The notes below the pieces were generated by a model, which saw only the letters and a program-made list of their open reading frames with translations, was not told where the DNA came from and made no database searches. Below are positions 8,737 to 43,771 of a stretch of 64,000 nucleotides of DNA, one piece after another (position 1 is the stretch's first letter; each line of letters begins with the position of its first letter). A program made the translations under genes and the position numbers. Origin of the DNA: Nitrospira sp. GTDB taxonomy: Bacteria > Nitrospirota > Nitrospiria > Nitrospirales > Nitrospiraceae. The DNA lies in NCBI GenBank assembly GCA_024998565.1, contig JACOEM010000003.1, forward strand, positions 248,001-312,000, given 5' to 3'.

Positions 8737-10401
8737 TTAGAAGAGGCTTCTGCTGATTTCTCCGGAAGGGGAACTTTCGTTGCCGCTTGAGTCGTAGGCC
8801 GTCACGGAGAACCAATAGGTCGATCCCAGCGGCAAGGTCAGGCGTGTCGAGGTGACGTTGCCGACATCGAATGACTGAGAACGAACGCCGGATCTTGTAC
8901 CGACATAAACCCGGTAACCTCTGAGGTCCGACTCACTGTTTGCAGTCCAGGTGACGGTCACCGTGCCGGTTGCCGTGCCGGAAGGCGGGGGTGGCGGCGT
9001 TGTGCTGCCGGTCGGCGAAGGCGGTGGCGGCGGGGGAGTCGTGCCGCTTGCAAGGACGGAAAGCGACACCGGAATACGCAAGGTTTGCGAGCCATTGGGG
9101 CCGCTTTCAACGATATAGATGACACCGGAGTAGGACCCGATGTTCATGGCCGAGGTATTGACCGTCACCGTGATGGGATCGATTTCGGTGGTGATGGTCT
9201 GCGTGCTGCCATAAGGTGGATTGAGGGCCGTCCAGGATTGGTTCGCACTAATGCTATACGTGCTTTGTTGGGTGCTCGATTTCTGCAAATTAAAGATTCC
9301 GGACACGGTGTTTCCCTTCGCTGTGCTGAGCGAGAGTGCAGACGGGAAGGCCTGGAGCATGGGCGTCAATGAGCCGGTCGGCGGCGGCGGAGGGGGCGGC
9401 GTCGTCGAGGGCGGCGGTGGTGGCGTGGTCGATGGCGGGGGCGGAGGCGGCGTCGTGCTTGAAGGGGGCGGCGGGGGCGGCGGCGGTGTGGTCCCGGTTG
9501 CCGTGACGTTGAGTGCGACCGGGATGCGCAAGGTTTGCGATCCGTTGGGGCCGCTTTCGACGATATAGACGACACCTGAGTAAGTTCCCACGTTCATGGA
9601 GGCCGTGTTCACCGAGACCGTGATGGGATCGACCTCGGTGGTGATGGTCTGCGTGCTGCCATAGGGTGGGTTGAGGGCCGTCCAGGATTGGTTCGCGCTG
9701 ATGCTATACGAGCTCTGTTGCGTACTGGACTTCTGCAGGTTGAAGACGCCGGATGCAGTGGTTCCCTTCGCGGCGGTGAGCGAGAGTGCGGACGGGAAGG
9801 CCTGGAGCATGGGCGTCAATGAGCCGGTCGGCGGCGGCGGAGGGGGCGGCGTCGTCGAGGGCGGCGGTGGTGGCGTGGTGGATGGTGGGGGCGGAGGCGG
9901 CGTCGTGCTTGAAGGGGGCGGCGGGGGAGGCGGCGGTGTCGTGCTCGTCGCAGTGACGGTGGTGGTCACCGGGATCCGCCAGGTCGTAGACACACCGGGT
10001 CCGGCCTGTCCGATGTAAATTGTCCCCGAGTAGGTTCCGGCCGCAAGTCCCATGGCGGCGGTATTCACCGTAACCGTGAGCACATCCGTTTCTGTGCTGA
10101 TGGTTTGGGTACTGCCGTAGGGGGGATTCAGCCAGATCCAGGATTGGTTGGCGCTGATGAAGTAGGTGTGTTGCGCCGTATCCGACTTTTTAAGACTCAA
10201 GGTGCCGCTGACCGTTCCTCCTTTGGCGACGGTCAAGGACAGTGCGCTCGGCGTAAACTGGATGTTCTGCGCGAGTGCCGATCCTCCCGTGCCGAAGTCG
10301 CAGAACCACAGAGTCAGCATCAAGGCCGTAAGCAATCCCTTCGCGCGTCGTCCGACGAGCCGGGCTGGATGCTGATTCACGGTGGTATCGTGCAACCTCA
10401 T
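8737..10401 (-). CDS. Secreted repeat protein: three BACON-like beta domains, poly-proline linkers, C-terminal fibronectin type III domain
   Basis: 554 residues with a signal peptide (cleavage near residue 44, after SALAQ). Three related beta-sandwich-like modules (about 45-150, 197-300 and 347-450) share FPSALSL, SANQSW, LNPPYGSTQTI and SGPNGSQTLRIPV type segments, resembling BACON/Ig-like adhesion modules. They are joined by long runs of proline broken by Ser/Thr pairs. The last ~85 residues (TVTWTANSESDLRGYRVYVG through YWFSVTAYDSSGNESS) are a fibronectin type III domain. The second and third modules with their linkers are nearly identical at DNA level. An AAGGGAG precedes the ATG. Probable extracellular or cell-surface adhesin or binding protein; no catalytic domain is visible. 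The poly-Pro linker gives long glycine-rich shadow frames on the other strand. Confidence 0.82.
   Translation of the reverse strand: MRLHDTTVNQHPARLVGRRAKGLLTALMLTLWFCDFGTGGSALAQNIQFTPSALSLTVAKGGTVSGTLSLKKSDTAQHTYFISANQSWIWLNPPYGSTQTISTETDVLTVTVNTAAMGLAAGTYSGTIYIGQAGPGVSTTWRIPVTTTVTATSTTPPPPPPPPSSTTPPPPPPSTTPPPPPSTTPPPPPPPTGSLTPMLQAFPSALSLTAAKGTTASGVFNLQKSSTQQSSYSISANQSWTALNPPYGSTQTITTEVDPITVSVNTASMNVGTYSGVVYIVESGPNGSQTLRIPVALNVTATGTTPPPPPPPPSSTTPPPPPPSTTPPPPPSTTPPPPPPPTGSLTPMLQAFPSALSLSTAKGNTVSGIFNLQKSSTQQSTYSISANQSWTALNPPYGSTQTITTEIDPITVTVNTSAMNIGSYSGVIYIVESGPNGSQTLRIPVSLSVLASGTTPPPPPPSPTGSTTPPPPPSGTATGTVTVTWTANSESDLRGYRVYVGTRSGVRSQSFDVGNVTSTRLTLPLGSTYWFSVTAYDSSGNESSPSGEISRSLF
9069..9968 (-). 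repeat. Two tandem 450-bp coding repeats
   Basis: 9069-9518 and 9519-9968 are nearly identical units of 450 bp (150 codons) within the surface-protein gene. Each encodes one beta module plus the poly-proline linker. The GC-rich linker stretches 9376-9490 and 9826-9940 differ by only a few bases. A third, more diverged unit follows from 9969. This points to recent duplication or ongoing gene conversion. Confidence 0.85.
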
Positions 10402-27841: not shown

Positions 27842-29566
27842 GTGAACTCGCTTCTACGCGTTCTGTCTTACCTCAAGCCGTTCCGGATGCTGGCGGTGGT
27901 GACCTTCGTGTGCGCGGGTCTCGCCACGGCGCTGGAATTGGTTCCGCCGTATCTCGTTAAGATCGTCATCGACGATGTGATCCAGTCGAAGCGTCCTGAG
28001 ATGTTGCCTTGGGTGTTGGGAGCGCTACTCGGCTCCTATGTCCTGCGGAATCTCATGAGCTCGATGCGGGTCCGGTTCAACAATCTGCTCGAACAGAAGG
28101 CCGTGCATGCGTTGCGCATGCAGGTGTTCGGGGCGCTGCAACGCCTGTCGTTGAGCTATTTCGAGAACCGCTCGACGGGTGAGATCATGACCCGGGTGAC
28201 CAGCGACACCGAACATGTCGAGCGGATTTTCGTCGATGGACTGGAGGGATTACTGACGGCCTCGCTGACTCTGGTCGGCATCACGATCATGATGTTCGTG
28301 CTGAACTGGAAGCTCGCGCTGCTTTCGCTGCTCCCCATTCCGATTCTGATCGTCTGTGCCGCCTGGTTTACGCGACGGGTGCACGGGTACTACGCCGAGA
28401 TCCGAAAAAGCGTGGCGGACCTCAATGCCTATCTTCAGGATGCCTTGTCGGGCATCAAAGAGACCATCGGCTTCAATCAACACGAGTATGAACGCAAACG
28501 ATTCGAGACATTGAGCCTGACGTACAGTCAAAACAGCCTGCGGGCCATGTTCCTGTGGTCCTGGTACTGGCCGGGTATGGTGTTTGTGGGCAGCACCGGC
28601 ACGCTGTTGATTCTGTGGCACGGCGCGGGAGAAGTGCTGGCCGGAGAACTGACGGTCGGTCAGTTGGTGATGTTCCTCTCTTACCTCGGGCTCTTTTATA
28701 CGCCGATCAATGAAATCCACTCGTTGAATCACATGCTGCAGCATGCGCTGGCGGCCAGTGAGCGTGTGTTTGAAATCCTCGATACCAAACCGGAGGTTGA
28801 AGACCGTCCCGGCGCGGTGCGGCCCGTCGAACGACTGAGAGGCGCGGTGGAGTATCAGCATGTGGGGTTCGGCTACCGGAAGGACGGCACCGTTCTCTCC
28901 GACGTGAATCTCACGGTCAGGCCGGGCGAACGGATCGCCTTGGTCGGGCCGAGCGGAGCGGGCAAAACATCGCTCTTGAAGCTGTTGATGCGGTTTTACG
29001 ACGTGCGCAGCGGGGCGGTGCTGGTCGATGGGCATGATGTGCGAGATCTGCCGCTGGACTTTCTGAGAGGGCAGATCGGCTTGGTGCAGCAAGAGCCCTT
29101 TCTCTTCAACGGCACCGTGCGCCAGAATATCGTCTATAGCGACCTCTCGGCCGGCCATGAGCGTGTGGAAGCGGCCGCCCGGGCGGCGCGAGCCCATGAC
29201 TTTATCACCCGACTGCCGGACGGGTATGATAGCTGGATCGGGGAGCGCGGGGTAAAATTATCGGTCGGGCAGAAGCAGCGGGTTTCGATTGCGCGCGTGC
29301 TGCTGAAAGATCCCCCCATCGTGATCTTCGACGAGGCGACGTCCAATATCGATACGGAAACCGAGGTGAAAATCCGTGAAGCCCTGAACGATCTGACCAA
29401 GGGTCGAACGACCTTTATCATTGCACATCGCCTGGCCACACTCCATGACGTGGACCGCATCATCGTGGTGGAGCGCGGGACGATTATTGAGGAAGGCGAT
29501 CACGAGGCCCTGATGAAACGCGGCGGGGTGTATGCCGGTCTGTACGAGGCCCAGTTTAAAATTTAA
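27842..29566 (+). CDS. MsbA-like ABC exporter (fused membrane and ATPase domains)
   Basis: 574 residues from a GTG at 27842. Six transmembrane helices span residues ~15-300 (coupling region FENRSTGEIMTRVTSDTEHVE), followed by an ATPase domain: Walker A GPSGAGKTSLLKLL, Q-loop GLVQQEPFLFNGTV, signature LSVGQKQRVSIARVL (LSVGQ rather than LSGGQ), Walker B PIVIFDEATSNID and H-loop IIAHRLATL. Length and order fit lipid A flippase/MsbA and related multidrug half-transporters that act as homodimers. The substrate is unknown. A structured repeat begins 2 bp after its stop. Confidence 0.9.
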   Translation: MNSLLRVLSYLKPFRMLAVVTFVCAGLATALELVPPYLVKIVIDDVIQSKRPEMLPWVLGALLGSYVLRNLMSSMRVRFNNLLEQKAVHALRMQVFGALQRLSLSYFENRSTGEIMTRVTSDTEHVERIFVDGLEGLLTASLTLVGITIMMFVLNWKLALLSLLPIPILIVCAAWFTRRVHGYYAEIRKSVADLNAYLQDALSGIKETIGFNQHEYERKRFETLSLTYSQNSLRAMFLWSWYWPGMVFVGSTGTLLILWHGAGEVLAGELTVGQLVMFLSYLGLFYTPINEIHSLNHMLQHALAASERVFEILDTKPEVEDRPGAVRPVERLRGAVEYQHVGFGYRKDGTVLSDVNLTVRPGERIALVGPSGAGKTSLLKLLMRFYDVRSGAVLVDGHDVRDLPLDFLRGQIGLVQQEPFLFNGTVRQNIVYSDLSAGHERVEAAARAARAHDFITRLPDGYDSWIGERGVKLSVGQKQRVSIARVLLKDPPIVIFDEATSNIDTETEVKIREALNDLTKGRTTFIIAHRLATLHDVDRIIVVERGTIIEEGDHEALMKRGGVYAGLYEAQFKI

Positions 29567-29568
29567 CC

Positions 29569-29688
29569 GAATGCTGAAAAAGTCCGCCAGCATCGTTCTC
29601 GCATCGTGAAAGAACTCAACGTACCGCAAGGCTACGCCTCGCTCTTTCACGTCGCGGCGGCCTTGCTGGACGCCCATTTTGAGCATCC
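29569..29688 (+). repeat. Structured palindromic repeat, copy R1
   Basis: About 120 bp beginning 2 bp after the ABC exporter stop. The ends are imperfect inverted (GAATGCTGAAAA ... TTTTGAGCATCC), and the centre holds a small hairpin CGTACC GCAA GG-C-TACG. It shares the core words GCCAGC, GTTCTCGCATC, CTCAACGTACCGCAAGG and GCGGCCTTGCTGGACG with R2-R7. Confidence 0.85.
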
Positions 29689-29751
29689 TTCGAGTATTGA
29701 GTGTTACAGTTGCGCAGACTTCATGACTGATGATCAAAGGGAGTAAAGGGT

Positions 29752-34739: not shown

Positions 34740-34746
34740 GTCCAAC

Positions 34747-34865
34747 GGAGGCTGGAAACCGTCACCAGCGGCGTTCTCGCATCGTTCAGGCCCTCAACGT
34801 ACCGCAAGGGTACGCCTCGGCCCTTCACTCGCTGCGGTCTTGCCGGGTAACGCTTTTGAGCCTCC
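34747..34865 (+). repeat. Structured palindromic repeat, copy R2
   Basis: Termini GGAGGCTGGAAA ... TTTTGAGCCTCC are complementary but differ from R1 and R5 (GGATGCT / AGCATCC) at paired positions. The central hairpin CGTACC GCAAG GGTACG is intact. It lies inside the operon gap between cysK and the first moeB. Confidence 0.85.
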
Positions 34866-34910
34866 TCTCCCTAGGTAATCTGTACCAAACTCAGATGTTG
34901 AAAATCTTCC

Positions 34911-35030
34911 GGATGTTGAAAATGGCCTTCAGCTTCGTTCTCGGCTCGACGAAATCCTCAACGTACCCAGCGGGTATGCCTCCGGTTTCCTCTCGCCTGC
35001 GGCCTTGCGGAGAGACCAGTTTGAGCATCC
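34911..35030 (+). repeat. Structured palindromic repeat, copy R3 (diverged)
   Basis: Termini GGATGTTGAAAATGG ... CCAGTTTGAGCATCC. The central hairpin has become CGTACCC AGC GGGTATG, changed in both arms but still able to pair. Placed 46 bp from R2 and close to the cysK stop. Confidence 0.8.
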
Positions 35031-36182: not shown

Positions 36183-36212
36183 ATCTGCTCCTGAGAAGGT
36201 AAGGGTCCGGCA

Positions 36213-36331
36213 GGATACTGAACATGTCTGCCAGCGGCGTTCTCGCATCTCTCAGGTCCTCAACGTACCGCAAGGGTACGCCTCGTTCCTTCGTTCGCTA
36301 CGGCCTTGCTGGACGGCCATTTTGAGTATCC
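36213..36331 (+). repeat. Structured palindromic repeat, copy R4
   Basis: Termini GGATACTGAACA ... TTTTGAGTATCC: the fifth and sixth positions differ from R1 and R5 in both arms, keeping complementarity. Central CGTACC GCAAG GGTACG hairpin intact. It sits 30 bp upstream of the ThiS-like start, in the expected promoter or leader region of the sulfur-carrier cluster. Confidence 0.87.
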
Positions 36332-36525
36332 TGTGAAAAGGTATTCTTGTTGCGCCTTACGTGTAGGTGCTCAGTGTTTCGATGAGCTCACAGTGATTTT
36401 CTGTAAACTGCTAAATAATTTCAAGAAGTTAGCAAACGCATTCTTGTTTTGTCAAGGCAACAGACCCCGGTGGGTCGATGTGGCGGAGGCTGCTGCGGAG
36501 TCGCACGGGGCAGGCGGCCGCTTTC

Positions 36526-36577: not shown

Positions 36578-36955
36578 ATGTGGAAGAAAAATTTCTTATT
36601 TCGCGCGCACGAGGCGGCTCCGCTGAAAGAGTCGGAAAACGAGCTGTTTCATGATGCGGAACCGGCCTTGGATAGCGCCGGGTTGCAGATGGAAAAATTT
36701 TTGTCGGTGTGGGTGCAGGGGGAAGGCGAGGACGACAGTCCCTCCATGTACACGAATATCTATGTGCGGACCGCGACACTCGATTTTCGTACGCGCGCCG
36801 GTTTTCTCCAACCCTTGCAGGGACGGTCGCATCAGATCAAGCAGATGTTGACGCCGGAGCAGAAGGGCTTTTTGCGCGAGTGGTTGTCCACGACCTCGCC
36901 TCAAGCTTGGGAAGAATCCGACGACCATTTTCGAACGCTCTTCGACCTAGAGTGA
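36578..36955 (+). CDS. Hypothetical protein, 125 aa
   Basis: Cytoplasmic by composition, no signal peptide or membrane segment. GGAGGGTAGGGC precedes the ATG. Residues ~35-85 (MEKFLSVWVQGEGEDDSPSM, YTNIYVRTATLDFRTR) look like a beta-rich domain; the end is acidic. No family recognised. Repeat R5 follows 10 bp after its stop. Confidence 0.6.
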   Translation: MWKKNFLFRAHEAAPLKESENELFHDAEPALDSAGLQMEKFLSVWVQGEGEDDSPSMYTNIYVRTATLDFRTRAGFLQPLQGRSHQIKQMLTPEQKGFLREWLSTTSPQAWEESDDHFRTLFDLE

Positions 36956-36965
36956 TCTGTGCTAG

Positions 36966-37088
36966 CAGGATGCTGAAAACCTCCGCCAGCGGCGTTCTCG
37001 CATCGCTCAGGTCCTCAACGTATCGCAAGGGTACGCTTCGGATCTTCATTCGCTGCGGCCTTGCTGGACGAACGTTTTGAGCATCCTG
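36966..37088 (+). repeat. Structured palindromic repeat, copy R5
   Basis: Full copy with termini CAGGATGCTGAAAA ... TTTTGAGCATCCTG, inner GCCAGCGGCGTTCTCGCATC and CGCTGCGGCCTTGCTGGACG arms and the central GTATCGCAAGGGTAC hairpin. Best reference copy in the window. Confidence 0.9.
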
Positions 37089-37169
37089 CGGGAATCCATC
37101 CGTATCTCATGTGTAACTCATCGAACATCACATGCGCTCATCAAACCTCTGCTGCCAGCTAGTCTCCGC

Positions 37170-39005: not shown

Positions 39006-39044
39006 CAGGGAGATATTTCGGTTCGGGCAACAATAAACCCAGCA

Positions 39045-39213
39045 CAGGATGCTCAAAAGGCCGTCCAGCAAGGCCGCAGCGAGGTCCACGGCGCGAAGCA
39101 TAATGAGCGCCACGTTTGTGGACGCCGGCGAGACGGTGAGCCGGCCGTGTCTTAAGACAACTCAGACTTGGTACGCAGCGAGAACGCCGCCGGCGGGATT
39201 TTTCAGCATCCTG
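39045..39213 (-). repeat. Structured palindromic repeat, copy R6 (long form, inverted orientation)
   Basis: On the reverse strand the copy starts CAGGATGCTGAAAAATCC and ends GGCCTTTTGAGCATCCTG. Its centre is replaced by a ~90-bp insert with a second hairpin GTCCAC ... GTGGAC enclosing GCGC ... GCGC. The insert is related to the one in R7. Only copy in this orientation. Confidence 0.85.
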
Positions 39214-39236
39214 CCTACACGACGAGAGAGGTGTTT

Positions 39237-39995
39237 GTGACACAACCCACTGCACTCGATATTCCCTCCGAGGTTCAGCAACTACTCAAGCGATACGTGA
39301 AGGAAACCACCGCGTTGCTTGGGTCGCAGCTGGAAGGCATTCTGCTCTACGGCAGCGCCGTGGGAGGGGAATTCCTGCCCGGCCGGTCGAATCTGAATCT
39401 GTTGCTCATGCTGTCCGGGTACGAGCGCGAGGGCATGAAGCGGTATGCGAAGGCGCATAAGCGTTGGAGTCGTGAACAATTCGTGGTGCCGCTCCTGGTG
39501 ACGGAGGCCGAACTCACGCGACCCGGCACCGTCTTTCCCCTGGAGTATCTGGAGATTCAGGAACAACATCGTGTGCTCTGGGGGCGGGATCCGTTCATCG
39601 GCATGCACATCGACCGGACGCATTTGGCCTATCAAGTGCAGCAGGGCATTCAAGGGAACCTGGTGCGTCTGCGGCAGCGATATATCGAAGGCGGCGGCAC
39701 GGAAGAAGCGATGACCATGTTGTTGCCGCTCTCGCTGACCGCGTTGCTGCCCTGCTTGCGCGGCTTGCAACGGATTGCCGGACAACCGGCCTTGTTTCAG
39801 TCGGATGCGTTGCTCGCCGGGATTCGCACGTTGACGGGGCTCGATCTCGCCGGACTGACTGATGTGTTGGAGCTGAAGCGGGGTATTATTTCTCCAGGTC
39901 CGGTGGAGGTGCCGCGGTTGTTCGAACGGTATGCAGCGAACCTCGACGCATTGATTGCGCTGATACGCCCGGATGGGGCGGTGACGCCGCGATGA
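39237..39995 (+). CDS. Nucleotidyltransferase-fold protein lacking the catalytic acidic pair
   Basis: 252 residues from a GTG at 39237 with GAGAGAG before it; a longer frame from 39168 would run into repeat R6. The MNT-type helix-strand motif LLYGSAVGGEFLPGRSNLNLLLM is present across residues ~37-59, but the expected S-D-x-D of the active site reads S-N-L-N, so both metal-binding Asp are Asn. The rest is helical. Likely catalytically inactive or with a changed role. It overlaps the TPM gene start by 4 bp, so the two are coupled. Confidence 0.72.
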   Translation: MTQPTALDIPSEVQQLLKRYVKETTALLGSQLEGILLYGSAVGGEFLPGRSNLNLLLMLSGYEREGMKRYAKAHKRWSREQFVVPLLVTEAELTRPGTVFPLEYLEIQEQHRVLWGRDPFIGMHIDRTHLAYQVQQGIQGNLVRLRQRYIEGGGTEEAMTMLLPLSLTALLPCLRGLQRIAGQPALFQSDALLAGIRTLTGLDLAGLTDVLELKRGIISPGPVEVPRLFERYAANLDALIALIRPDGAVTPR

Positions 39996-40729
39996 GTCAT
40001 CGATTCAGGATCATCATCGGTTCCATTGTGGGGTTGGGCCTTCTGCTGCTGTTGGCTACAGTGCCGGTCGGGTTTGCCCGTGAGCCTGTGCCATCATATG
40101 ACCCGCAGGGCTATGTCAGCGACCATGCCGGGGTGATCGATGCGGAGTGGCGCGCCAGAATCCGTTCGGTCTGCCAGGATCTTGAACGCAAGACCGGGGT
40201 CGAAATGGTGGTCGTCACCGTGCCCACGCTGAAACCCTATGGTTCGGCCAATGACTATGCGGTCGGTCTCTATCAGAAATGGGGCATCGGTTCGGCCCAG
40301 AATGAGCATGGGGTGTTGGTGCTGTTGTCGGTGCAGGAGCGCCAGGCGGCCGTCACCATGGGACGACGGATGTTGCCGGTGATGGGTGGAAATGTGGTCG
40401 GGAAGGTCGGGCATGAATATCTCGACCCTGCCATCAAGAACGGCCACTTCGGCGAAGGACTCTATCGAACCGTCGTGGGATTGGCGTCGGTCTCGCAGGA
40501 CATTCGTGTGTCCAACGTGCAGAAGGCACACTTTCGCGGACTCGGCTTCTGGATCACCATCACCACGGCTAGCGGCGCATTGTGGTTTCTCTGGTGGCTC
40601 AGCCGGCCCGATCTGCGCCATCCCTATGGGCGGATTAGAAAAGGCCAGTATTGGGGCAGCGGCCAAGGAGGGTTTGGCGGGAACTTCGGCGGCATGGGCG
40701 GAGGGACGAGCGGGGAGGGGTGGAAGTAG
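39992..40729 (+). CDS. TPM domain membrane protein
   Basis: 245 residues: signal/TM segment (IIGSIVGLGLLLLLATVPVG), a TPM domain from ~38 to 180 (GYVSDHAGVIDAEWRARI, VEMVVVTVPTL, WGIGSAQNEHGVLVLLSV), a second TM (FWITITTASGALWFLWWL) and a Gly-rich tail (GGFGGNFGGMGGG). TPM proteins include YgcG and the photosystem repair protein Psb32 and face the periplasm. The Gly-rich tail is a family feature. Translationally coupled to the preceding gene. Confidence 0.87.
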   Translation: MSHRFRIIIGSIVGLGLLLLLATVPVGFAREPVPSYDPQGYVSDHAGVIDAEWRARIRSVCQDLERKTGVEMVVVTVPTLKPYGSANDYAVGLYQKWGIGSAQNEHGVLVLLSVQERQAAVTMGRRMLPVMGGNVVGKVGHEYLDPAIKNGHFGEGLYRTVVGLASVSQDIRVSNVQKAHFRGLGFWITITTASGALWFLWWLSRPDLRHPYGRIRKGQYWGSGQGGFGGNFGGMGGGTSGEGWK

Positions 40730-40731
40730 GG

Positions 40732-40829
40732 GAGAGGGCGGGCTGGTCGTCCTCTTGCTCGCGGAACGCGCACCTCGGACGCTGCTCGTTCGACGCGCGC
40801 AGTTGAGGATCGATCAGCCCACCCTCTTT
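40732..40829 (+). repeat. Second palindromic repeat family, copy A
   Basis: About 98 bp right after the TPM stop with near-complementary ends (AGAGGGCGGGCTGGTCGTCC ... GATCGATCAGCCCACCCTCT) and the internal words CTCTTGCTCGCG, AACGCGC and GACGCGCGCAG. Unrelated to R1-R7. Confidence 0.7.
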
Positions 40830-40857
40830 TGTTAGGCGGGGGAGTAATTGCGGAAAG

Positions 40858-40951
40858 AAGGAGGCCCGTTAGTCTCTCTTGCTCGCGCAACGCGCGGTCG
40901 AGGACTCCCCTCGTTGGACGCGCGCAGTGGGAGACCAATCGGCCCACCCTC
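40858..40951 (+). repeat. Second palindromic repeat family, copy B
   Basis: Direct-repeat partner of copy A, 28 bp downstream: GGAGGCCCGTTAGTCTCTC ... GGGAGACCAATCGGCCC with the shared internal words TCTTGCTCGCGCAACGCGC and GGACGCGCGCAGT. Arms differ from copy A but are again mutually complementary. Confidence 0.7.
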
Positions 40952-41096
40952 TAGAGGAGAGGCAGAGAAACACCCCTACGAAATCCTTGGATTTGCGTCG
41001 CAATCCTGGCAGGATGTCCGACAGTGCTTATTCAGTACCGCAAGGCAGTCGGTATCTAACTACGGAACAAGATAATATAGTGTTGGCCAGGAATAA

Positions 41097-41789
41097 ATGA
41101 ACGACACCTGCTTTGCATGCAGCAATCCTGCGATGTCGCGCGAGCACGTGCCGCCAGCATGCCTCTTCCCGGAGGCCAAAGATACCGACGGCACGCAAGA
41201 CTACCGGCGCAACCTCATCACTGTACCAGCATGCAAAGATCACAACTTGGCGAAGTCCGATGATGACTCATACTTCTTGTGGGTCTTGAGCACCAGCTTG
41301 CCAGCGAACGCCGTAGCCAGAGGGCAAGTGGCGACCAAGCTCAAGCGTGCGCATACTCGACGCCCGGCTCTCGGCAGTTCAGTCCTGAGCTATGCCAAGG
41401 ATGTCGTCGTAGCCGATAGTCATTCATGTACGAAGCACGATGCAGTCGAAATACCGCTGGATGGCGCACGTTTCCAGAAAGTGCTCGAGTTGATAGCACG
41501 CGGTCTCTACTCTCACCACTTTGGCCAACGCTGGACTGGCAAAGTCCTTGTGTTACCAGACTTCATTGCGTTCCCCGAGGCTCCTGCCCAAGCCGACGTC
41601 GACGCCAACCGACTCGTCCTATTCAATTGCGCGCAGCAGCTGTTCGCCGCGCAGACACAGTACGGCGAGAACCCCGACGTATTCTGGTACAGAGTCCATA
41701 AGTCAATGGTTCAATACCGATGTCTAATGCGGCTCGCTTTCTACGGGCACTGCACAGCTACCGTGTTTTTCGGCGAAGGATCGGGCTAA
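41097..41789 (+). CDS. HNH-like endonuclease domain protein, likely acquired
   Basis: 230 residues. N-terminal CFACSNPAMSREHVPPACLF followed by ITVPACKDHNLAKSDDDSYF gives the Cys pairs and the His-Asn pattern of an HNH finger (residues ~5-60). The remainder is unrecognised. Composition is visibly less GC-rich and codon use more even than in the neighbours, and the ORF lies between repeats and a small accessory gene, suggesting horizontal transfer. A nuclease role is inferred from the HNH fold only; there is no evident restriction partner. Confidence 0.68.
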   Translation: MNDTCFACSNPAMSREHVPPACLFPEAKDTDGTQDYRRNLITVPACKDHNLAKSDDDSYFLWVLSTSLPANAVARGQVATKLKRAHTRRPALGSSVLSYAKDVVVADSHSCTKHDAVEIPLDGARFQKVLELIARGLYSHHFGQRWTGKVLVLPDFIAFPEAPAQADVDANRLVLFNCAQQLFAAQTQYGENPDVFWYRVHKSMVQYRCLMRLAFYGHCTATVFFGEGSG

Positions 41790-41886
41790 TACGCCGCTAG
41801 AGGCGGATCGTTCTACGCGAGGTTGATCAGCAGCAATCCGTTAAAACACAGACTCGAATGCCGCTATCGGCTGATTAGGAGGAAGA

Positions 41887-42096
41887 ATGGCTACGTATCG
41901 CCAGATCCAGGACGATGTGAAGAAGCGACACGGACGAACTGTGAAAACTTGCTGGATAGCTCATGTGAACGAGTTAAATGGACTGCGCCTACGGCTTGCG
42001 CCGAACAGACGATCAAGAGCAAGGCGGCAGGTGCCGTGCCCGCCCGGTGTTCGTCCTCTAATCGAGGCGTCCATGCGTCGATTTCACATGCTTTAA
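41887..42096 (+). CDS. Small conserved protein, 69 aa, unknown
   Basis: AGGAGGA precedes the ATG at ideal spacing. The sequence TVKTCWIAHVNELNGLRLRL followed by APNRRSRARRQVPCPP is a pattern I recall from small proteins scattered in many bacterial genomes, often in accessory regions; no function is established. Basic (RRSRARR). Travels here with the HNH-like gene. Confidence 0.65.
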   Translation: MATYRQIQDDVKKRHGRTVKTCWIAHVNELNGLRLRLAPNRRSRARRQVPCPPGVRPLIEASMRRFHML

Positions 42097-42108
42097 AGTA
42101 CTGACTTC

Positions 42109-42168
42109 ATTGCATTCTGATCAGTACTTACACCGGACGTAACCGTCTATTGCATTATGATCTTCACT
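42109..42168. repeat. Pair of 20-bp imperfect direct repeats
   Basis: ATTGCATTCTGATCAGTACT (42109-42128) and ATTGCATTATGATCTTCACT (42149-42168) differ at four positions and are spaced 40 bp start to start. An AGTACT inverted pair flanks the first. Located at the right end of the accessory patch. Confidence 0.5.
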
Positions 42169-42170
42169 GA

Positions 42171-42557
42171 TTACCCCTGCAATTGCGCCAGCATGGCCGC
42201 TGGGTTCCAGTAGCCCCACATCGTTTGGATTTTTCCTTCCTGGTTGATCTCGAACACATCGATGCCTTCGAAGCTCACCTGCCCGCCATTTTTGCCGGTG
42301 CCGTGCCCCGTGAACTTCACCGCGACCCGGTTGCCGGATAGGAAGACGTGGTCCTGCGTCATGGTGATCTTTTCAAAGGCTCCGAGCACCCCCGCTAGAA
42401 ATTGTCGCAATGCCGCATGGCCCTGTAGCGGTGCGGGTGCTCCCGGTTCGTAACTGGTTCCCTGCTCTGCGAAGCAGGCGACCCAGGCGTCAGGGTCCAT
42501 CTCTCCTATGGCGCTAAAATATCGGGCCACCACTGCCGGAACGTTCTCAGAGGTCAT
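42171..42557 (-). CDS. SnoaL-like / NTF2-fold protein
   Basis: 128 residues from the ATG at 42557 with AAAGGAA upstream. VPAVVARYFSAIGEMDPDAW, followed by YEPGAPAPLQGHAALRQFL and FEGIDVFEINQEGKIQTMWG, is the standard SnoaL-like polyketide cyclase/NTF2-like pattern. Such proteins are small cytoplasmic enzymes or binding proteins; substrate unknown. Stands alone. Confidence 0.82.
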   Translation of the reverse strand: MTSENVPAVVARYFSAIGEMDPDAWVACFAEQGTSYEPGAPAPLQGHAALRQFLAGVLGAFEKITMTQDHVFLSGNRVAVKFTGHGTGKNGGQVSFEGIDVFEINQEGKIQTMWGYWNPAAMLAQLQG

Positions 42558-42853
42558 GCTTGATTTTCCTTTGCTCGGATGGACTGTTGTGTGCACCGTG
42601 GTGGAAACTCTGGCCTTCAGATGAATTACGGAGGCGTAGCATCCTGTGGATTTCTCATTCCGGAAAATTTCTTCGCCGGCACAGCGACAACTTAGCCTGA
42701 GGAGCATCCTCAGGCGTAGCCCTGAAGATGATGCCTATGCTGGTGGCAACAGATCAATCTATGATTGAATTGATCGCGCGCCCCTTCGGTAAGGGCAGTG
42801 TTTCAACCGGCCATCCTCCGCGATGAACCTATCAGCAGTTACGTGAGGGCCTC

Positions 42854-43210
42854 ATGATCGTGGAAGTTGAATCGAACGACAATTGCGACACCAGCTTCTT
42901 CGCGCGCTTCAAGGAAGTCGGGCCGGCTCGACCGGTGGTTCAAGTCCGGCTGTATGAGCGAAACCCTACCGGTGAGTGGTGCTGGGTGACGGGCTGGAGC
43001 GACAATGAACAGGTTCCCACATGTCCCGCCTACGTCCAGCTGATTGAAGATTCGGGATCGGGGTTGGCGTACCTCGTGTATGGAGGGCTCTATGGTCTAC
43101 GGTTCAGGCCCATCCAAGTCGATGAGCCTTGGAGTCTCCAGAGCTCCCATCAATGGGGAGAGGCGTATCTGTCCCTCGCCGATGTCCGTGATGTGCGTTA
43201 CGCCGGCTAG
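42854..43210 (+). CDS. Hypothetical protein, 118 aa
   Basis: Starts MIVEVESNDNCDTSFFARF; contains VQVRLYERNPTGEWCWVTGW and LAYLVYGGLYGLRFRP. Likely a small beta-rich cytoplasmic protein without membrane segments. No family recognised. Its TAG is immediately followed by repeat R7. Confidence 0.58.
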   Translation: MIVEVESNDNCDTSFFARFKEVGPARPVVQVRLYERNPTGEWCWVTGWSDNEQVPTCPAYVQLIEDSGSGLAYLVYGGLYGLRFRPIQVDEPWSLQSSHQWGEAYLSLADVRDVRYAG

Positions 43211-43399
43211 CAGGCTGTTGACAAAGGCCGCCAGCGGCGTTCTCGCAAGACACTGCCGCCTCACCGGCTCGGCGGCGTTCACAAACGTGACGCGCGTTAC
43301 TCCGCGCGTCGTGAACCTCAGAGGCTCACCGTACGGCACGAGTACGATTCGCCTCTTCGCTTGCTGCGGCCTTGCCGGACCGCCTTTCTCAACAGCCTG
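43211..43399 (+). repeat. Structured palindromic repeat, copy R7 (long form)
   Basis: 189 bp starting at the base after a stop codon. Its termini CAGGCTGTTGA ... TCAACAGCCTG are perfectly complementary although they differ from R5 at several positions. The insert hairpin is GTTCAC ... GTGAAC around ACGCGCG ... CGCGCGT, compensatorily different from R6. The GTAC central hairpin is kept. Confidence 0.87.
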
Positions 43400-43771
43400 C
43401 GGCGGATTCTGCGAACGTCTGTAACTAGGCTGGTCCCCACATTTCGGCTCTGAGTATGTAGTTTGTCAACGCACTGCTAGCGGTCTTTGCACACAGGGAG
43501 CTGATCCGGTCCCGGCGGCATACTCCTGTTCCCATTCACGACTCGGGCGTGCTTATTCTATTGCACGTTGCGATATTCGATGGGTTTCTCCCCATCGGCC
43601 AGCTCCGTTCTGAGCCCTACCAGCCAAATATTTTCGCTGTGCTTGACCTCCATCGCCGGATAGGGAGTATGATGGCGCATCCTGCAATCTGCGGATGTCG
43701 CTCTACTGAATGAGGGTTCTCTGCCTCCTAGAAGAGCGATTGCCGACACGCCTTCGCTTCAGGAGGCTGCG
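43400..43771. other. Gap without a supported gene
   Basis: About 370 bases before the tandem Usp gene. A minus-strand frame of 63 codons (43558-43749) has no family match and no ribosome-binding site. The usp promoter should be here, but I see no clear boxes. Confidence 0.45.

Follow-up and report, generated by a model that had tools for sequence, protein, structure and literature searches.

The window analyzed here is a 64,000-nucleotide (nt) stretch of a Nitrospira sp. genome of 4.13 Mb in 19 contigs (GenBank assembly GCA_024998565.1, contig JACOEM010000003.1, positions 248,001 to 312,000), and it contains two loci, R6 and R7, that are copies of one outer-hairpin repeat, which we named element A. 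An earlier note on this DNA described R6 and R7 as a long form of the element with an extra hairpin. Both copies do carry a related insert, and its hairpin is real, but a further stem had been missed, so that the insert is a double hairpin. What the two loci have in common is a gap-free module of 76 nt, with a conserved core of about 73 nt. This module is separate from element A rather than a longer version of it; R6 and R7 carry two lineages of the module, each specific to its site, and differ in architecture.

At R6, element A lies on the minus strand at positions 39043 to 39216 (outer hairpin GCAGGATGCTGAAAA../..TTTTGAGCATCCTG; DNA fold z of −3.1), and its inner core is replaced by the module (39079 to 39154, minus strand; covariance-model E value of 3.8e-17 in a search of its own genome) together with an unrelated stretch of about 25 nt. 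Stem 1 of this copy, one of the two missed earlier, is GCCGGC/GCCGGC with the loop TCACCGTCTC; stem 2 is GTCCAC/GTGGAC, as first reported, followed by a 6-nt bulge, AAACGT, and an inner stem, GGCGC/GCGCC. At R7, element A lies on the plus strand at 43206 to 43402 (DNA fold z of −5.2), and the module (43246 to 43321, plus strand; E value of 5.5e-16 in the same search) stands 5' of an intact host core, CTCACCGTACGGCACGAGTACGATTCGCCTC, within the outer hairpin. Here the missed stem 1 is GCCGCC/GGCGGC, while stem 2 is GTTCAC/GTGAAC, again as reported, with the same bulge and the inner stem GACGCGCG/CGCGCGTC; the enclosed stems were likewise correctly identified in both copies. The R6 module is of the 3'-site (site 2) subtype and the R7 module of the 5'-site (site 1) subtype.

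Across copies the module has a single layout. It opens with AAGACAC and a 6-bp stem closed by the 10-nt loop TCACCGTCTC; hairpin 2 is built of a 6-bp stem, the 6-nt bulge ARACGT, a 5-bp stem, a small TC/TC internal loop, one further base pair and the hexaloop TTATTC, and the module then ends in ACC. Fifteen copies from the same genome aligned at 76 nt without any gap, and the fold returned by RNAalifold, .........((((((..........))))))((((((......(((((............)))))))))))....., was the same as the one written by hand. Among 192 unique copies taken with their flanks, 177 were exactly 76 nt long, and conservation dropped outside columns 2 to 74. The loop (TCACC..CTC) and the bulge (..CGT) are nearly invariant, making recognition by a protein or a tertiary contact likely; the columns of a possible pseudoknot between them (CACCG with ACGTG) are nearly invariant or lack covariation. 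The ends (AAGACAC..GGACCTC) are not complementary, and the consensus fold leaves them unpaired; the module thus has no terminal inverted repeats.

Covariation was assessed by collecting further copies, as the earlier note had proposed. Searches of the genome itself yielded about 20, and in the 15 that were aligned 99.2% of cells were paired, 10 of 17 pairs showed double changes, and none of 500 shuffles matched either the pairing score or the double-change score. In a larger set of 165 distinct gap-free copies, the 18 stem pairs were 95% Watson-Crick, many of them with compensatory double changes; the refutation named in the earlier note, copies that have the insert and lack complementary arms, was tested on this set, and it is contradicted by that share of paired stem cells. 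Mutual information ranked the varying stem pairs among its top hits. A further pair, between columns 51 and 58, was AT in 56 copies, TA in 48, GC in 30 and CG in 18, never G.T, and the two columns beside it changed jointly, forming a TC/TC internal loop in some copies and a GC/GC stem in others. Covariation was also present within each host class taken separately, and the same module recurs in unrelated hosts, which bears out the original proposal of an independently maintained second structural module.

These stems do not vary in the manner of an RNA. A single transition turns a Watson-Crick pair into G.T or A.C equally often, and an RNA stem keeps the wobble pair and rejects A.C; over the 18 pairs of the 165 copies we counted 31 G.T against 47 A.C, so that wobble was not favored. 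The 41 short copies of host element A gave about 31 G.T and 26 A.C, with two invariant T-G columns set aside. Since G.T is no commoner than A.C in the module, selection appears to act on folded single-stranded DNA, or on a cruciform, rather than on RNA, and for the same reason the RNA probing once suggested for this locus may be the wrong test.

The module almost always lies within another hairpin-forming repeat, and it was found in at least four unrelated families of palindromic repeats: element A, at one position on each side of the core; element B (GGAGGGTGGCC..); element C (GCATTATTCATGAGCAC..); and family E. A few other places were left unclassified. There are at least seven distinct landing contexts, self-nesting included, for at two loci (L155 and L170) one module stands in the terminal loop of another, and some hosts have both of their module sites filled. 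Orientation relative to the host was strongly biased (96:6 in A, 12:0 in B and 15:0 in C), and stem 2 followed the site: GTTCAC in 38 of 40 copies at A site 1, GTCCAC or GTCCGC in 44 of 54 at A site 2, GTGCGC in 15 of 18 in B, and GCGCAC in 13 of 20 in C and in 4 of 4 in E. Each host site thus has its own stem subtype, and the stem difference between R6 and R7 is the difference between the site 2 and site 1 lineages. In hosts with both sites filled, the two modules have unlike stems; our guess is that this avoids cross-pairing between them. As a separate observation, a hairpin, GGGTACCYGTTG..CAACGGGT, occupies the terminal loop of a module at L193 (positions 356 to 459) and also occurs near the module at L189, L131 and L198.

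With one genome taken per species, all 29 genomes of the genus contained the module, in 1 to 78 copies each, as did 105 of the 175 genomes of the family, covering 20 of its 22 genera. Matches were also obtained in at least a few metagenome-assembled genomes with other taxonomic labels, which may be mis-binned contigs, and a scan of viral contigs returned none. In the open-access Nitrospira literature on miniature inverted-repeat transposable elements (MITEs), repetitive extragenic palindromic (REP) sequences and palindromic repeats, we found no description of the module, only mentions of CRISPR and a table row from RepRanger.

Comparison of orthologous places shows how the two loci in the window came to differ. 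R7 lies in an insertion of about 270 bp (43211 to 43480, plus strand; CAGGCTGTTGACAAA..TTTGTCAACGCACTGCTAG) with TAG/CTAG on both sides. This unit is missing at the orthologous place in genomes G023, G022 and G001, which have an empty TAG site, and in G023 the gene beside that site is 99% identical. R7 is therefore a recent gain, made as part of the larger unit. The TAG/CTAG around the filled site is too short, set against the empty TAG, to separate a duplication from an element end. The place of R6, in contrast, has the same outer hairpin and the same two flanking genes in most relatives, and it is the interior that differs: the module in G000 and G008, a plain element A core in most others, and in G019 and G020 a different cargo, long and palindromic. 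Interiors have thus been swapped in place within conserved outer hairpins.

At the level of single nucleotides, an orthologous element B locus could be compared in its empty and filled states, CCCG-TGC-TCGCG and CCCG-AAAGACAC..ACC-TCGCG; TGC was replaced by the module, with no duplication. Comparison between families at other sites shows 3 to 5 nt replaced before a fixed TC. The right junction is fixed before this TC, and target duplication is absent. The observations support, as the probable explanation, a model in which the module is a double hairpin of DNA, independent, nonautonomous and mobile, which inserts into the internal loops of other hairpins and owes most of its spread to its hosts. 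Founding insertions would enter such loops in hairpin-forming repeats of other kinds; most of the later spread would then come from amplification of the host composite, as with R7 in its unit of about 270 bp, and from recombination between host copies with common arms.

Several results weigh against this model. The left junction is variable, with no more than 0.55 bits at any of flank positions −30 to −1 across the 192 copies and no tag; the R6 module by itself folds modestly better than shuffles (z of −1.5); and the tRNA positive control for the comparison of G.T with A.C was too small, there being too few tRNAs. No founding insertion was caught as a clean gain into a nonrepeat site, and the subtype is tied to the host site, which together imply that founding insertions were few and that most copies were perhaps carried by their hosts. 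Carried further, this leads to a possible but less probable alternative: a passenger that inserted a few times long ago, was later spread by MITE-like amplification of its hosts and by gene conversion, and has no mobility now. The site-specific subtypes, most clearly those of A site 1 and of B, the exchange of R6 interiors within a conserved outer hairpin, and the arrival of R7 in a larger unit all agree with such a history. The number of landing contexts, the nesting of module within module and the hosts with two filled sites do not, and a dead passenger left to drift would not retain stems that are so largely Watson-Crick and show all four types of pair at a single position. The least probable of the alternatives is a structured RNA that acts after transcription, as a terminator or in mRNA stability or processing, with compensatory changes maintaining its fold. 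The strongly conserved fold, the invariant loops and the intergenic positions beside genes would suit such an RNA, yet the balance of G.T and A.C indicates that neither strand behaves as an RNA stem, and the occurrence of the module follows host DNA repeats. When the window was scanned with Rfam, only a tRNA reached the gathering score, and the module matched no family.

Y1 transposases are present in 19 of the 29 genus genomes, and the genome studied here encodes one resembling the REP-associated tyrosine transposases (RAYTs), of 287 amino acids (aa), with a Y1_Tnp domain and a C-terminal helix-turn-helix. Genomes with the longer, RAYT-like Y1 had severalfold more module copies, 9 to 78 against 1 to 13 in those lacking it (Mann-Whitney P of 2e-5), and phylogenetic generalized least squares with midpoint rooting gave P values of 0.0003 to 0.0006. 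These figures, and the strand-specific orientation, would be expected if the module were a REP/REPIN-like sequence that a RAYT (TnpA-REP, of the Y1 HUH type) mobilizes in trans, with the folded single strand as its substrate. We consider that account doubtful, a little more so than the passenger history: the left end lacks a tetranucleotide tag, and as many as 13 copies occur even in RAYT-negative genomes. Two further results count both against it and against the model we prefer, namely that the association weakened to P values of 0.07 to 0.2 under a strict definition of RAYT, once weak homologues were dropped, and that none of 20 RAYT loci had the module beside the gene, the sole copy lying about 5 kb away (L340). 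The correlation was noticed after the fact and is therefore a lead only. Of the enzymes that might make the founding insertions of the mobile double hairpin, correlation alone puts a RAYT-type Y1 (HUH) transposase first.

Among known systems, the closest in description are the double-hairpin elements of fungal mitochondria (Paquin et al. 2000, through the accounts in PMC2800124 and PMC5910586), which in those accounts consist of two hairpins, are patchily distributed and lack flanking duplications. The module likewise has two adjacent hairpins with compensatory change, looks mobile, is patchy among close relatives, lacks flanking duplication and occupies tolerant places. It differs in residing in a bacterial chromosome, family-wide and at one constant length, and in entering other hairpin repeats and its own kind with the replacement of 3 to 5 nt at a fixed |TC. 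By this likeness of description, with no sequence relationship claimed, the module appears to be a counterpart, in bacteria and so far undescribed, of the mitochondrial elements. REP/REPIN and BIME repeats, which are associated with RAYT transposases (PMC3733652, PMC3116915), are short palindromic intergenic DNA as well; the module resembles them in these features, in its tens of copies and strand specificity, and, less clearly, in the presence of RAYT in most high-copy genomes. Unlike REP/REPIN, it combines two hairpins that differ from each other and have conserved loops and a bulge, is nested in other repeats, lacks a GTAG/CGTC tag and does not lie beside a RAYT gene. Bacterial MITEs such as RUP, NEMIS/Correia and ERIC (PMC2229807) are comparable rather to host element A, which ends in inverted repeats and whose R7-carrying unit is bounded by TAG/CTAG and faces an empty orthologous site. 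The module itself has neither terminal inverted repeats nor a target duplication. The BOX elements of Streptococcus (boxA-boxB-boxC) are, as here, modular repeats with optional inner units; we know of no recurrence of those units in unrelated host repeats and of no self-nesting.

Bacterial genomes commonly contain short palindromic repeats, and how these move is usually unclear. The constant length, exact junctions, filled and empty orthologous sites, self-nesting and strong DNA-level covariation make structure-targeted insertion directly testable in this case. Tentatively, the module might even belong to a class of bacterial mobile DNA that is itself new, one whose moving form is a folded double hairpin and whose targets are chosen by structure. 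Such DNA would integrate at GC|TC in the loops of other DNA hairpins, further modules among them, at the cost of a few target bases, and would so build branched multihairpin composites with mutually distinct (orthogonal) arm stems. In an important lineage of nitrifiers, intergenic repeats are thus assemblies of interchangeable hairpin units, a point that bears on the reading of genome plasticity and on annotation, where such repeats give rise to spurious open reading frames (ORFs).

Element A is frequent in the window without the module. Plus-strand copies of this kind, of which the whole genome supplied 41 for alignment, lie at 36961 to 37091, at 36206 to 36336, at 29562 to 29689 and at 34740 to 34870, where a diverged copy follows at 34904 to 35030. 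In many copies, those of L006, L007, L008, L018, L022 and L091 among others, the short apical loop is replaced by a second interchangeable tip module, GGCCACGGGACAAGAGCCTGTCTTGGCAGGCTCGGGGTGGGCGGGTA. A third cargo of the outer hairpin is a long palindromic stretch, GTGAAACGTGAAACGTATCTCGTC..GAGCGTATGGC, seen at L237 to L239, L243 to L245, L249, L250 and L252, and also at the orthologous place of R6 in L258 and L269. An IS701-type parent for element A was guessed from its CTAG-like flanks and rejected, DDE_5 occurring in only 1 of the 29 genomes; no parent transposase was found, the IS701 family having been tested and other families not searched for shared ends. Element A also supplies the tails of ORFs, such as SASGVLASLRSSTYRKGT..RCGLAG (for example at 36709 to 37080 and 43044 to 43424), which are likely to appear in annotations of Nitrospira genomes as spurious hypothetical proteins.

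Two adjacent module-free copies of element B lie on the plus strand at 40740 to 40955, each with an empty site, TTGC|TCGCG. The pair adjoins a 230-aa ORF (41097 to 41789) with no Pfam match, and the two together are possibly a small variable segment. Elsewhere in the window, at 8971 to 9720, there is a 300-nt direct repeat with a spacing of 450 nt, its copies 80% identical.

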